From positions 1-38,243 of the forward strand of contig JAAZKM010000073.1 in assembly GCA_012799835.1 (NCBI GenBank): a DNA stretch of 38,243 bases, written 5' to 3'. Every line of letters starts with the position of its first letter. Positions within the stretch are counted from its first letter, which is position 1. This document shows positions 27,559-36,994 of this stretch, in pieces. A program made the position numbers and the translations under genes. Source of the stretch: Candidatus Methanofastidiosia archaeon (GTDB lineage Archaea; Methanobacteriota_B; Thermococci; Methanofastidiosales; Methanofastidiosaceae). The notes under the pieces were generated by a model. The model was given only the letters and a program-made list of their open reading frames with translations, did no database searches and was not told the DNA's origin.

Positions 27559-28533
27559 ATGAACGAACATCTAAGATCAATGATTTCGGACAAAACATTT
27601 GGTGAAAAGATCCAGGAAGTTAAGGAAACACATATTTCTTATGTTTTTTTAACGAAGAAACGTGCGTACAAAATCAAAAAAGACGTTAAATTTACTTTTC
27701 TTGACTATTCAACTTTAGAAACAAGAGAATTCTACTGTAAGGAAGAGTTTAGAATAAATAAACTACTAAGTCATGACTTATACATCAATGTTTCGCCATT
27801 GGTAAAAGAAGGCGATACATTGGTACTTTCTGATTCTGGATTCCCACTTGATTATGCCATAGTTATGAATAGGGTGCCTGAAAAATACATTATGAGAAAT
27901 CTAATTGAAAAAAATAAAATTACCGTCGATACTATCGAAGATATTGCCCTAAAAGTGCTCTTATTTCATAAGATGGCAAAGATTGATTCTAAAGGAAAGT
28001 ATGGATCGTTGGCCAATATCAAAAGAAATGTCTTTGATAATTTTAAAGACCTTGAATGTTTTATCGGGGATCTTTATTCAAACGACGAGTTCAATATACT
28101 AATTGGAAAAAATATTGAGTTTATGGATAGTAACGCCTCACTATTTGAGAAAAGGATTAAAAAAAGCAAGATAATTGAAACTCATGGAGATCTTCATTCT
28201 GGCAACATCTTTGTTACTCCAAAAGATACATTTATATTTGATGCCATTGAATTTAATCCTGGAATTAATACTACTGATGTTGCAGCTGAAATTGCATTTT
28301 TATGCATGGATTTAGAATTTTTAGGAAGGGATGATCTCTCAGAGGCTTTTTCAAGTAAGTATATACTTGAGAGCAACGATAAAGAAATTCTAAAACTACT
28401 TTCCTTTTATAAAGGATATAGGGCATGCGTCAGGGCGAAAGTTAATGGATATAAAGCGGCTGTTGATAATGCTGCTAAAGAATTAACGAAGAAATATTTT
28501 TATCTGGCTTTGAAATATGCGGAGGAGTTGTAG
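27559..28533 (+). CDS. COG2187-type aminoglycoside-phosphotransferase-like kinase
   Basis: The 324-residue protein has a protein-kinase/APH fold. The ATP lysine region is RAYKIKKDVKFTFLDYSTLE (about 35-54). The catalytic HGDLHSGN (209-216, Asp211) and the metal-binding Asp228 (FIFDAIEFN) are intact, so it should be an active kinase. Bacterial members are often fused to a P-loop ATPase domain; this one stands alone. The substrate is not known. The ATG is leaderless (TTTTAAATAC about 25 nt upstream). The M20 peptidase gene starts on the last base of its stop. Confidence 0.85.
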   Translation: MNEHLRSMISDKTFGEKIQEVKETHISYVFLTKKRAYKIKKDVKFTFLDYSTLETREFYCKEEFRINKLLSHDLYINVSPLVKEGDTLVLSDSGFPLDYAIVMNRVPEKYIMRNLIEKNKITVDTIEDIALKVLLFHKMAKIDSKGKYGSLANIKRNVFDNFKDLECFIGDLYSNDEFNILIGKNIEFMDSNASLFEKRIKKSKIIETHGDLHSGNIFVTPKDTFIFDAIEFNPGINTTDVAAEIAFLCMDLEFLGRDDLSEAFSSKYILESNDKEILKLLSFYKGYRACVRAKVNGYKAAVDNAAKELTKKYFYLALKYAEEL

Positions 28534-30883: not shown

Positions 30884-31540
30884 ATAATTGACAATTCCAA
30901 CATATCATCCATTTTACTAACTCTAAAAGAAGAGATCAAGAAGTTTTCTCTTCCCATTGTTTCAGAAGTTGCAGCAGACAGGGACCCATACAAAGTCTTA
31001 ATATCATGCATCTTAAGCCTTAGGACTAAAGATGAGGTGACAAAAAAAGCTTCAATTAAGCTTTTTGAACATGCAAGCACTCCAAATGAGATGATTAATC
31101 TAACTGAGGACGATATTAAAACTTTGATTTATCCTGTCGGATTCTATAAAACTAAAGCAAAAAGAATCATTGAGATGTCCCACAAGATTTTGGAGGATTA
31201 TAACGGGGTAGTCCCTGACACAATTGATGAACTTTTAAAATTGAAGGGGGTAGGGAGAAAAACTGCAAATATTGTCATTACCTTAGGATATGCAAAGCTT
31301 GGAATTTGTGTTGACACACATGTCCATAGAATTTCAAATAGATGGGGTTATGTTAAAACAAAAAATCCAACCCAAACTGAATTTGCATTGAGAGAAAAAC
31401 TTCCTAAAGAGTACTGGATTGAGTATAATGATATTCTCGTGACATATGGACAAAATGTTTGCGTACCTATAAGCCCAAAATGTAGCATATGTCCTATAGA
31501 AAAATACTGTCCAAAAATAGATGTGATAAAACACAGATAA
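30884..31540 (+). CDS. nth: Endonuclease III, with no ATG/GTG/TTG at its real start
   Basis: This DNA glycosylase/AP lyase removes oxidised pyrimidines. With start at 30884 it has 218 residues. The helix-hairpin-helix LLKLKGVGRKTANIV holds catalytic Lys126, Asp144 is in CVDTHVHR, and the [4Fe-4S] cysteines are 193, 200, 203 and 209. The first normal start codon in frame is GTG 31037, which would remove the N-terminal helices, including the conserved PYKVLISCILSLRTKDE. The frame is open up from there to a stop at 30869, with no ATG, GTG or TTG. AGGAGGGGG (30870-30878) precedes ATA 30884 and ATT 30887, so one of these probably starts translation. Confidence 0.85.
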   Translation: MIDNSNISSILLTLKEEIKKFSLPIVSEVAADRDPYKVLISCILSLRTKDEVTKKASIKLFEHASTPNEMINLTEDDIKTLIYPVGFYKTKAKRIIEMSHKILEDYNGVVPDTIDELLKLKGVGRKTANIVITLGYAKLGICVDTHVHRISNRWGYVKTKNPTQTEFALREKLPKEYWIEYNDILVTYGQNVCVPISPKCSICPIEKYCPKIDVIKHR

Positions 31541-31547
31541 GCAGTAG

Positions 31548-31622
31548 TGGGCCCGCTGAGATTTGAACTCAGGACCTCCCGGTTATCAGCCGGACGCTAT
31601 AACCAGTCTAAGCCACGGGCCC
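31548..31622 (-). tRNA. tRNA-Ile (GAT)
   Basis: Acceptor GGGCCCG/CGGGCCC, anticodon loop CTGATAA with GAT anticodon, anticodon stem TCCGG/CCGGG and T arm CTGAG-TTCAAAT-CTCAG. CCA is not encoded (CTA follows), unlike tRNA-Ala. It lies on the minus strand in the gap between nth and the Fap7 gene. Confidence 0.96.
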
Positions 31623-31648
31623 ATATATATCATGGAAATATTAACAAC

Positions 31649-31658
31649 ATATTTAAGA
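31649..31658. promoter_or_regulatory. Shared TATA box of tRNA-Ile and the Fap7 gene
   Basis: ATATTTAAGA reads TCTTAAATAT in reverse. Its centre is about 26 nt from the Fap7 ATG on the plus strand and about 32 nt from the tRNA-Ile 5' end on the minus strand. No other box is seen in the 57-base gap. Confidence 0.5.
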
Positions 31659-31679
31659 TTTTCGTTCATATACGTAGTT

Positions 31680-32198
31680 ATGAAGCTTTTGGTCACTGGG
31701 GTGCCTGGAACAGGCAAGACCACAATATCAAAAAAACTGGCAGAGATACTAAATTTGACTCATATAAACGTTGGCCACTATGCAAAAAATCACTTTGATT
31801 TTCCAATTGAAGAAGGTGAAATAGTGGTAGATGAAATTTTAATGGAAGAAGAATTAGAAAAATTGGAAAATATCATAATAGATTCTCATATCCCTTTTAA
31901 GGCAGACAAAGCCATTATATTAAGATGCAGCCCTACCGTTCTTTTTGATAGATTAAGTAAGCGGAATTACAATATGGAAAAGATAAAAGATAATCTATTG
32001 TCAGAGATCCTTGATTATGTGGTGTGTGAAGCTAAGGATATATTTGACGAAAAGGATATCTATGAAGTCTTGAGTGAAAACATGGATGATGCCATAAAAG
32101 AAATATTGGAAATAGTTAAGGGGAAAGGCATATCCCTTAAAAACGGAAATCATCATAATTTTCTTACTGAAGATAATATACTATTAATAGAAAAATGA
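31680..32198 (+). CDS. Fap7/AK6-type adenylate kinase
   Basis: The 172-residue protein is a small P-loop kinase, with Walker A VTGVPGTGKTT at residues 5-15 and SKRNYNMEKIKDNLLSEIL, typical of AK6/Fap7. In eukaryotes and archaea this family helps 40S/30S subunit maturation with uS11. An open frame reaches back to 31563 but would run through the tRNA gene; the leaderless ATG 31680 has a TATA box 26 nt upstream. The C-terminal about 20 residues (from KNGNHHNFL) extend past the usual end. Confidence 0.88.
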   Translation: MKLLVTGVPGTGKTTISKKLAEILNLTHINVGHYAKNHFDFPIEEGEIVVDEILMEEELEKLENIIIDSHIPFKADKAIILRCSPTVLFDRLSKRNYNMEKIKDNLLSEILDYVVCEAKDIFDEKDIYEVLSENMDDAIKEILEIVKGKGISLKNGNHHNFLTEDNILLIEK

Positions 32199-32271: not shown

Positions 32272-33651
32272 ATGGACCTCATCATTAAAAATGGAACTAT
32301 AGTCACTCCAACAGATACATATGAAGCAGATATTGGTATTAAAGGTGAAAAAATTGTGGCCATTGGAAAAGAACTTTCCGGCTCTAAAGTAATTGATGCA
32401 AAAGGCATGATGGTTTTTTCTGGTTTCATAGATGTACATACGCACATTGAAATGCCATTTATGGGAACATACTCATCTGATACATGGGAGACAGGAACAA
32501 AGGCTGCTGCTTTTGGTGGAACAACTTGCATTGTTGACTTTGTTATCCAATCAAAAGGAGGCACTCTAAAGGAAGCGCTTGGTGAATGGAACAAAAGGGC
32601 AACTGGAAATGCTTACATTGATTATGGATTTCACATGGCTATGACCGACGTAAACGATGATGCATTAAATGAAATGGAAACAATGATAATGGAAGAGGGA
32701 ATTTCTAGCTTCAAATTATTTTTTGCATACAAGGGAGAACTTATGGTAGATGATGATGCGTTCTACAAGGCACTTGAAAAAGCAGAAGAACTTGGGGGAT
32801 TAATTATGATCCATGCTGAAAATGGCCATATTGTTGATCTTTATACAAAAAGCCTGTTAGCTGAAAATAAAAATGAACCGATGTACCATGCCGTTTCAAG
32901 ACCCTCGATAATTGAGGGGGAAGCCTGCCAAAGAGCTATCACTTTAGCAGAGCTTGCCGAGGCACCACTTTACATAGTCCACAACTCATGTCTTGAGGCA
33001 GTTGAAGCAATTCATGAAGGAAGGGAACGTGGACTTCCAATTTATGGTGAAACGTGCCCACAATATCTCACTCTTGACGAAGAAAGATACACTGACCCTG
33101 GATTTGAGGGTGCGAAGTATGTCATATCCCCTCCATTGAGATCAGATTTTGACCAAGATGCGCTTTGGTTTGCAATTGAGAGAGGGGATCTTCAAGTAAT
33201 TTCAACAAATCACTGCCCTTTCTTTTTTAGAAAACAGAAAGAAATGGGGAAGAATAACTTTGCAAAAATACCAAACGGAATGCCTGGAATTGAAACTAGA
33301 ATGGCAGTAATGTACACTGCAGGGGTGCTTGAAGATTGGATCACAATAAATAAATTTGTGGAACTTAATTCAACAAATCCTGCAAAGCTATTTGGAATGT
33401 TTCCACAAAAAGGAACAATAGCTATCGGTTCAGATGCAGACATAGTTATATTTGATCCGGAAAAAGAGGTAACTATTACTTCTAAAAATCTTCATCAAAA
33501 TACAGATTACACCCCGTGGGAGGGCATGATAGTAAAAGGCTACCCTGTAACAGTCCTCTCAAGAGGAAAAGTAATCGTGGATAAAGGCAGTCTAAAAGGC
33601 GAAAAAGGATGGGGTAAATTTATAAAAAGAGATAGATTCTATCCACTGTAA
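32272..33651 (+). CDS. Dihydropyrimidinase/D-hydantoinase-like protein with Asn at a metal-ligand site
   Basis: The 459-residue protein is a cyclic amidohydrolase of the dihydropyrimidinase group. Five of the six di-metal ligands of studied D-hydantoinases match with a constant offset of two: His56, His58 (DVHTH), carboxylated Lys148 (SFKLFFAYKG), His181 and His237. The sixth, normally Asp in a GSDHC or GTDNC motif, is Asn313 here (ISTNHCPF). This Asp also takes part in catalysis, so hydrolysis may be lost or altered. The usual IPNGMPGIETR follows. AAGGGAG before ATG 32272 decides the start over TTG 32248. A class III aminotransferase follows. Confidence 0.9.
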   Translation: MDLIIKNGTIVTPTDTYEADIGIKGEKIVAIGKELSGSKVIDAKGMMVFSGFIDVHTHIEMPFMGTYSSDTWETGTKAAAFGGTTCIVDFVIQSKGGTLKEALGEWNKRATGNAYIDYGFHMAMTDVNDDALNEMETMIMEEGISSFKLFFAYKGELMVDDDAFYKALEKAEELGGLIMIHAENGHIVDLYTKSLLAENKNEPMYHAVSRPSIIEGEACQRAITLAELAEAPLYIVHNSCLEAVEAIHEGRERGLPIYGETCPQYLTLDEERYTDPGFEGAKYVISPPLRSDFDQDALWFAIERGDLQVISTNHCPFFFRKQKEMGKNNFAKIPNGMPGIETRMAVMYTAGVLEDWITINKFVELNSTNPAKLFGMFPQKGTIAIGSDADIVIFDPEKEVTITSKNLHQNTDYTPWEGMIVKGYPVTVLSRGKVIVDKGSLKGEKGWGKFIKRDRFYPL

Positions 33652-33817: not shown

Positions 33818-35149
33818 ATGGAAGATTATGCGCTGATGGAAAAAGAGTATGTCATGAGGCCTTGGATGTGCCAAGCTGATGTCAGAGTTAACATTGTAGA
33901 TAGGGCTGAAGGTATATACTTTTGGGATAAAGCGGGTAAAAAATATACTGATTTTTCCTCCCAACTTATGAGTTCAAGTTGCGGGCATAATGTAAAGGAA
34001 ATAAATGACGGTATAATCGAACAGCTTAATAAATATGCCTATGTTAGTTCTGGACTTGGAAGCGAAGCAAGAGCAAAGCTTGGAAAAATGATGGCCGATA
34101 TTACAGGGCCAAACTATAAGAAAACATTCTTTTCTTCAAGTGGCACTGAAGCAAACGAAGCGGCAGTCAAAGCAGCTAAATGGTACACGGGAAAATACAA
34201 ACTTATTTCCCGCTATCAATCATTTCACGGTGCAACCGGCATAGCAATGATGTTAACAGGAGATCCAAGGAGATACCCAAATGAACCTGGATATCCAGGG
34301 GTATTGCACGGACCTGATTGTTACTGCTATAGGTGCCCATTTAAGCTCGAATATCCAGAATGTGACATTTTATGTGCTAGGTATATTGGTGACATGATTA
34401 GATATGAGTCAAAAGATTCAGTTGCCGCCGTAATAACTGAGCCAATAGTGGGTTCAAATGGCATCATCCCCCCAGTAAAGGAATATTTTCCCATGTTACG
34501 GGAAATTTGTGATAAGTACAATGTGGTATTAATTGCAGATGAAGTCATGACAGGATTTGGAAGAACAGGAAAATGGTTTGCTTTTGAGCATTATAATTAT
34601 AAACCTGATATAATCACTTCAGCAAAAAACATATCTGCAACTTACGTCCCTCTTGCCGGAACTACCTATTCTAAAAAAATATCTGACTATTTTGAAGACC
34701 ATTGGTTTGTTGAAGGCCATACATTTGCAGGCCACCCGCTTGGCTGTGCAGCCGGAGTTGCAACAATAGACTACATGAAGAAGAATAAGCTAGTGGAAAA
34801 TGCAGCAAAGATGGAAAAGATAATGGAAAAAAGATTAAATGAGATCAAGGCTTGCCATAAATCAGTAGGGGATGTCAGGGGAAAAGGATTGTTTTGGGGA
34901 ATTGAATTAATAAAAAACACAAAGACAAAAGAGCAAATGGGAACAAGAGAAGATAGGTTCATTAGAGGTCATGTATCAATACCCGCTAAAGTGGCAGGGG
35001 AATGTATGAGAAATGGAGTATTTTTCTTACAGATGATATCTACACTTCTGTTTGCACCCCCTCTATCAATAAATGAAAAACAGATAAATGAGTCTCTTGA
35101 TGTTGTTGACAAAGCTCTTGAAATATCTGACAGAGAAGTTGTGGCATAA
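33818..35149 (+). CDS. Class III (omega-amino acid type) aminotransferase
   Basis: The 443-residue PLP enzyme is of the beta-alanine/taurine/4-aminobutyrate transaminase class. The PLP lysine is Lys270 (DIITSAKNISATYVPLAG), where Asn follows in place of the usual Gly. SSSGTEANEAA and ADEVMTGFGRTG are the cofactor loops. A Cys cluster at 168, 170, 173, 182 and 186 (CYCYRC, PECDILC) is found in related omega-aminotransferases of anaerobes. Next to a hydantoinase-like gene, beta-alanine is a reasonable substrate guess for pyrimidine breakdown; no beta-ureidopropionase is in view. Confidence 0.9.
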   Translation: MEDYALMEKEYVMRPWMCQADVRVNIVDRAEGIYFWDKAGKKYTDFSSQLMSSSCGHNVKEINDGIIEQLNKYAYVSSGLGSEARAKLGKMMADITGPNYKKTFFSSSGTEANEAAVKAAKWYTGKYKLISRYQSFHGATGIAMMLTGDPRRYPNEPGYPGVLHGPDCYCYRCPFKLEYPECDILCARYIGDMIRYESKDSVAAVITEPIVGSNGIIPPVKEYFPMLREICDKYNVVLIADEVMTGFGRTGKWFAFEHYNYKPDIITSAKNISATYVPLAGTTYSKKISDYFEDHWFVEGHTFAGHPLGCAAGVATIDYMKKNKLVENAAKMEKIMEKRLNEIKACHKSVGDVRGKGLFWGIELIKNTKTKEQMGTREDRFIRGHVSIPAKVAGECMRNGVFFLQMISTLLFAPPLSINEKQINESLDVVDKALEISDREVVA

Positions 35150-36478: not shown

Positions 36479-36994
36479 TTACATGAGTTCGTCAAGAGGT
36501 ACATCAATAAATTTGTTCAACTTAGGAAGCATATGTCTTGTAGTTTTTGGTGGGAAAAGTTTTCCCCTCCGTGCGGTCTTCACAACTTCCTCTTTTGTCA
36601 CTTTTTTAGGAACTAATATTGCATCAGCCTTTTCAGAATAAAGTAACCAATAGGCTTTCTTCAAAGTCTTTTCATACCTTACAGTCATACCATTTTTTTC
36701 TAGTATCTCTACCATCTTGCCCAAATCCCCGTAAATAACTGGAAACCATTGTCCTAATTTTATCTCAGGATCGCTATAATTTACAAGCAAACAAGGGACT
36801 TTTTTACACCCAAGTCTTTTAGCAGCTTCAAATCTATGATGACCATCGAGAATTGTCATGGTATCTCCATCAACAATGATGGCAACTGAGAACTTCTTTT
36901 CTCTTTCCATCTTAATCATTAATCGATTAAGGACACTAGGAACTATACGCTCATGAGTATTTAGCCTTTCAATCTCGATGTACTCTATATCCAT
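36479..36994 (-). CDS. ParB/SerK-like protein
   Basis: The 171-residue protein has a ParB/sulfiredoxin fold. Its motif TMTILDGHHRFEAAKRLG (about 46-63) is the nucleotide-binding GHHR loop, and GKLFPPKTTRH lies at 144-154. These resemble the ADP-dependent free-serine kinase SerK of Thermococcus. I infer serine phosphorylation but have not confirmed its catalytic residues; a DNA-binding ParB role is less likely without a HTH domain. The ATG is leaderless, with a TATA box inside the last codons of hypF (37018-37030). Confidence 0.75.
   Translation of the reverse strand: MDIEYIEIERLNTHERIVPSVLNRLMIKMEREKKFSVAIIVDGDTMTILDGHHRFEAAKRLGCKKVPCLLVNYSDPEIKLGQWFPVIYGDLGKMVEILEKNGMTVRYEKTLKKAYWLLYSEKADAILVPKKVTKEEVVKTARRGKLFPPKTTRHMLPKLNKFIDVPLDELM

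Follow-up and report, generated by a model that had tools for sequence, protein, structure and literature searches.

The window analyzed here is a stretch of 38,243 nucleotides from the genome of a methane-producing archaeon, Candidatus Methanofastidiosum (genome G000). Its positions 32272..33651 (+ strand) code for a protein of 459 residues, which family profile, solved relatives and predicted fold all identify as a dihydropyrimidinase/D-hydantoinase, with Asn at the sixth metal-ligand site. In the family profile search the product matched TIGR02033 with 621.3 bits, above the curated cut-off (393.25), and its best solved relatives found by phmmer are bacterial dihydropyrimidinases/D-hydantoinases (3sfw, 1yny and 4kir), with 52% identity to 3sfw. 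The AlphaFold2 model (mean pLDDT 83.1, pTM 0.87; residues 315-336 are poorly defined, with pLDDT <50) likewise has 3sfw as its best structural match (TM 0.95/0.94). Both score and fold place the protein in this family; it departs from the family definition in a single feature, the sixth ligand. A second, intact dihydropyrimidinase was looked for in the window's genome, and none was found.

Several neighboring genes have features of their own. The start of the kinase open reading frame called at 31563-32198 is underlain by a tRNA-Ile (GAT) gene (31547-31622, - strand). The kinase probably starts at Met40 of this frame. In-frame stops seen in G005 and G006 may be due to the part ahead of that Met, which would be non-coding. 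The endonuclease III reading frame (31037-31540, + strand) lacks an N-terminus as called. Since the frame is open upstream and no ATG, GTG or TTG was called there, the gene probably begins with a less common start codon. The 324-residue product of 27559-28533 (+ strand) has no NCBIfam or Pfam match. At the other end of the window, the match of a 171-residue protein (36479-36994, - strand) to the model of the ADP-dependent serine kinase SerK is confined to the N-terminal half (positions 17-124 of 244), although the genus keeps the protein at this length. The reading frame at the contig edge (37018-38235, - strand) aligns with HypF over the C-terminal half alone (positions 327-740).

Members of this family bind their metals through four His, a carboxylated Lys and an Asp. 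The Asp binds one metal and also acts as the proton shuttle between the bridging water and the leaving nitrogen. Five of the six ligands are present in the window protein: the alignments put His56 and His58 of the His-Thr-His stretch (32437..32445), Lys148, the equivalent of the carboxylated bridging lysine (32713..32715), His181 (32812..32814) and His237 (32980..32982), all on the + strand, on the remaining metal-ligand positions. The first-pass annotation had given this mapping, with a constant offset of 2 relative to D-hydantoinase, and both the mapping and its coordinates proved right against the solved relatives. It had also placed catalytic Asp315 of D-hydantoinase on Asn313 (codon AAT, 33208..33210, + strand). 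Translation gives ISTNHCPF for residues 310-317, and in the phmmer alignments Asn313 falls on the Asp of ‘SDHCPF’ in 3sfw, 1yny and 4kir with no gap nearby, which confirms the assignment. The substrate-binding residues, whose roles (Tyr155, Ser288/289 and Asn337) are as given in PMC4437985, coincide with Tyr153, Ser286 and Asn335 of the window protein. According to the same paper, the D316A mutation at the equivalent site inactivates Pseudomonas aeruginosa dihydropyrimidinase, as do Ala mutations of the other five ligands (PMC4437985).

The closest relatives (85-93% identity) come from Candidatus Methanofastidiosum and from one archaeon labelled only Euryarchaeota. Eight of the ten genus genomes contain the gene. 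Asn313 is present in two of these eight orthologues, that of the window and that of G007 (LNJB01000010.1), while the other six (G001, G002, G003, G005, G006 and G008) have Asp, as do all four copies from outgroups of the same order (G012, G013, G015 and G016). A read error is thereby ruled out, and so is fixation of Asn throughout the genus. The two Asn genes both use the codon AAT, and their products are 93% identical at a dS of 0.47. More broadly, the site is covered by 32 of the 33 loci from named genomes, with Asp in 31 and Asn in one (LNJB), and in the phylum set of 115 genomes the Asn pattern (NHCPF...PNG) matched two genomes and the Asp pattern nine. Distant paralogs (L013, L014 and L019) were left out of further residue comparison. 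The concatenated DNA tree unites the two Asn species (100% support), and the protein tree rooted with outgroups also places them in one clade. Asn313 is thus a single derived change on one branch, that of a two-species clade. As to whether Asn is fixed in close homologs, a genus-wide feature can be ruled out; nevertheless, the residue is common to two species in separate assemblies. In the first-pass annotation, finding Asp in close relatives was to be the sign of a point mutation or a read error; this is borne out only as far as the Asp itself goes.

Gene order is kept around all eight genus orthologues, as far as the contigs reach. The next gene is in every case a class-III aminotransferase (33818..35149, + strand), the best PDB relative of which is taurine:2-oxoglutarate aminotransferase (6jix). 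G004 (99% complete) retains the aminotransferase gene, but there it comes immediately after the kinase gene, with no dihydropyrimidinase gene at the locus. The corresponding site in G009 is unreadable because the contig begins inside the aminotransferase.

The expected next step is catalyzed by a Zn-dependent N-carbamoyl amidohydrolase (TIGR01879, 398 bits). This carbamoylase is present in five of the six Asp genomes (G001, G002, G003, G005 and G008) and also in G009. The G008 copy (L121, G008:C240) is split over two frames, reflecting a frameshift or perhaps an assembly error. Neither Asn genome (G000, G007) has a TIGR01879 match, so that, as judged by this family, they lack the downstream N-carbamoyl hydrolase of reductive pyrimidine or hydantoin degradation. 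There is also no match in G004, which has no dihydropyrimidinase at the locus, or in G006 (Asp; 68% complete). In G001, G002 and G003 the carbamoylase has an MFS transporter on one side and, on the other, a Mem_trans gene with UvrC after it. The two Asn genomes have about 110 bases between the MFS transporter and UvrC; the carbamoylase and Mem_trans genes are gone from an otherwise complete locus. At the syntenic locus of G004 the carbamoylase alone is missing. Where both loci can be read, Asp occurs together with the carbamoylase (5/5), Asn without it (2/2), and one genome has neither gene (1/1). This association rests on few independent events, at most two or three, because the Asn clade represents one event in two genomes. 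Alternatively, the Asp clade may have acquired the carbamoylase. The four Asp outgroups (G012, G013, G015 and G016) have no TIGR01879 match above the cut-off, so Asp at this site does not require a carbamoylase of this family. G007 codes for a CN_hydrolase that most resembles N-carbamoylputrescine amidase (214 bits, under the cut-off of 410) and might act on carbamoyl products in place of the carbamoylase. No CN_hydrolase of this kind was detected in the window's genome.

Codon models (GY94 with F3x4 on a fixed topology that includes two nodes of 60-78% support) were run on the dihydropyrimidinase gene and 12 neighbors; the kinase gene (31563) was analyzed with its probably spurious N-terminal extension, with G005 and G006 dropped for stops. 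For the dihydropyrimidinase gene, omega is 0.0245 in the Asp clade (background), 0.045 on the stem between the clades (stem values are rough, since the two clades are separated by many synonymous changes) and 0.062 on the tips of the two Asn species, a 2.5-fold rise over the Asp clade. The difference between branches (2dlnL 16.3, p 2.8e-4) has the smallest p value of the 13 genes. At the same time, a model with omega=1 on the Asn tips fits worse by 101 log units (lnL -5519.24 versus -5418.27) and is rejected, and in both species all 459 codons form an open frame that starts at the same position and has no indels. The Asn protein is thus conserved under moderately weaker constraint, and the gene is probably not decaying. 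The controls are mixed: the neighbor at 27559-28533 shows a 2.54-fold rise of omega on the Asn tips (p 0.0012), and the omega of the aminotransferase is raised on the stem (0.068 versus 0.031, a rough 2.2-fold; p 0.0075).

Among the 81 columns of the alignment that are invariant in the 15 other sequences, 313 alone is changed in both Asn rows; otherwise-invariant sites 45, 50 and 201 are changed in one or the other. Polarization with two outgroups assigned 11 changes, shared by the two Asn species, to the stem of the Asn clade. Six of them (275, 285, 313, 320, 321 and 337) lie in the beta7-beta8 catalytic segment (residues 275-338; 33094..33285, + strand), whereas among the 26 changes found in the Asp clade alone three do so (Fisher p 0.011; p 0.035 for the narrower segment 284-338), the region having been picked with the data in view. 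Met285Ile adjoins Ser286, and Ala337Met/Ile lies two residues past Asn335, both substrate residues.

What could these observations mean for the protein? An Asn in place of the Asp, a missing next enzyme and a conserved gene together indicate that the original job has probably been lost or changed. In the explanation that we favor, at a probability of roughly one half, hydrolysis was silenced or strongly weakened as the pathway broke, and a protein with a metal site was kept for another role. The ancestor of the two Methanofastidiosum species would have had a working dihydropyrimidinase and would have exchanged the catalytic metal-ligand Asp for Asn in a lineage without the downstream N-carbamoyl-amino-acid hydrolase. 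An amide keeps the shape of the carboxylate but provides no base. Most likely the Asn protein still adopts its fold, has a carboxylated lysine, and accommodates one or more metals as well as a ring-shaped ligand. Residue 313, however, would no longer take the proton of the bridging water or pass it to the leaving nitrogen, so that hydrolysis of dihydrouracil and hydantoins would be abolished or strongly reduced. The protein may have been retained for binding of a ligand or metal, for a structural partnership or for turning over another ring slowly. Orthology, Asn313, the remaining ligands, the purifying selection and the missing carbamoylase are observed; that activity is lost, that metal is bound and that there is a new role we infer. 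Several points speak against this explanation: the inactive mutant carries Ala rather than Asn (D316A; PMC4437985), the Asn clade is one event, the four Asp outgroups have no TIGR01879 match above the cut-off, the CN_hydrolase of G007 might stand in for the carbamoylase, the carbamoylase may be a gain of the Asp clade, and omega on the Asn tips is raised to a similar degree in the neighbor at 27559-28533. The first-pass annotation took a new activity or a non-catalytic role to follow from a conserved Asn. The missing carbamoylase strengthens this, as it supports lost or changed hydrolysis, although Asn is shared by two species and not by the genus.

The alternative that survives best, with a distinctly smaller though appreciable chance of being correct, is that the protein is still an enzyme with shifted chemistry. 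Asn313 would act as a neutral metal ligand, and proton transfer would fall to a different residue or to bulk water; the result would be a cyclic amidohydrolase that is slower or of different specificity and that has adapted to another ring. The retention of all remaining ligands together with Tyr153, Ser286 and Asn335, the strong purifying selection on the Asn gene, the clustering of changes next to substrate residues (Met285Ile, Ala337Met/Ile) and the raised omega of the adjacent aminotransferase on the same stem would all suit such an enzyme. However, Ala at the equivalent site abolishes activity in a relative (PMC4437985), no replacement acid was identified, and the expected next enzyme is missing. 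Less probable is a gene on its way out, in which Asn was an early inactivating step after loss of the pathway and no function is left. The missing carbamoylase, the absence of the gene from the G004 locus, the raised omega on the Asn tips and the changes at 45, 50 and 201 are all compatible with decay. The firm rejection of omega=1 and the intact frame with a shared start in both species argue against it, and the codon model disfavors a simple pseudogene. Somewhat less probable still is post-translational deamidation, in which Asn313 would become Asp, perhaps through attack by the hydroxide bound to the protein's own metals, and an ordinary dihydropyrimidinase would be restored. Asn313 is placed where an activated water could attack the amide, with the five other ligands intact, and conversion of Asn to a succinimide has reportedly been seen in a hyperthermophilic glutamine amidotransferase (PMC13234242). 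Yet Asn-His is not known as a fast deamidation motif, and neither the raised omega nor the missing carbamoylase fits an unchanged function. Finally, a sequencing or assembly error is very improbable: the relatives are metagenome-assembled genomes, but the same Asn and the other stem changes recur in the assemblies of two different species (LNJB01000010.1 being the second), on a branch followed by strong purifying selection, which refutes a read error and likewise excludes a private mutation.

The favored explanation, a metal-site protein kept after hydrolysis was silenced or weakened, can be set against known systems. Bacterial D-hydantoinases and dihydropyrimidinases (3sfw, 1yny, 1k1d and 1gkp; TIGR02033) share with the window protein the fold, five ligands and the Tyr, Ser and Asn substrate residues, but have Asp at the position of the sixth ligand and proton shuttle. 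The Asp orthologues within Methanofastidiosum are closer, being 85-89% identical and set in the same gene order; they differ in keeping Asp313 and, in five of six genomes, in having the TIGR01879 carbamoylase. Laboratory Asp-to-Asn mutants made for studying or trapping bound substrate exist in isoaspartyl dipeptidase (D285N) and dihydroorotase (D250N), at what we take to be the same superfamily position as Asn313; those changes were engineered, whereas Asn313 is natural and common to two species. A search of titles and abstracts, with subscription literature thinly covered, returned no report of a natural Asp-to-Asn dihydropyrimidinase. The vertebrate pseudo-dihydropyrimidinases (CRMP/DPYSL), which the first-pass annotation had offered as a parallel, have the same fold (35-37% identity to the window protein) and are likewise family members kept without a full catalytic site. 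The parallel is a loose one. In CRMP-4 just two of the six metal ligands are retained, and Leu replaces the lysine (PMC4051505). The window protein has thus not undergone the CRMP-like loss of the lysine and most ligands: it is changed in one position and keeps Lys148 and all four His.

A clear dihydropyrimidinase annotation (621 bits) can therefore sit on a protein that probably does not carry out that reaction. We further suggest, tentatively and with less confidence than for the explanation above, that this is a natural metal-loaded archaeal pseudo-dihydropyrimidinase, in which one Asp-to-Asn change, fixed in two species without the downstream enzyme in their genomes, left a former hydrolase as a conserved protein that binds a ring or serves a structural purpose. 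If true, this would parallel the CRMP transition in a prokaryote, at a stage where the first step has just been taken, and Asp-keeping sister orthologues are available for comparison. Pseudoenzymes are usually recognized long after divergence. Here the changed residue, the missing next enzyme and the intact orthologues are found together in one genus with conserved gene order, so that the order of events, and the function that remains once catalysis is gone, would be directly testable.
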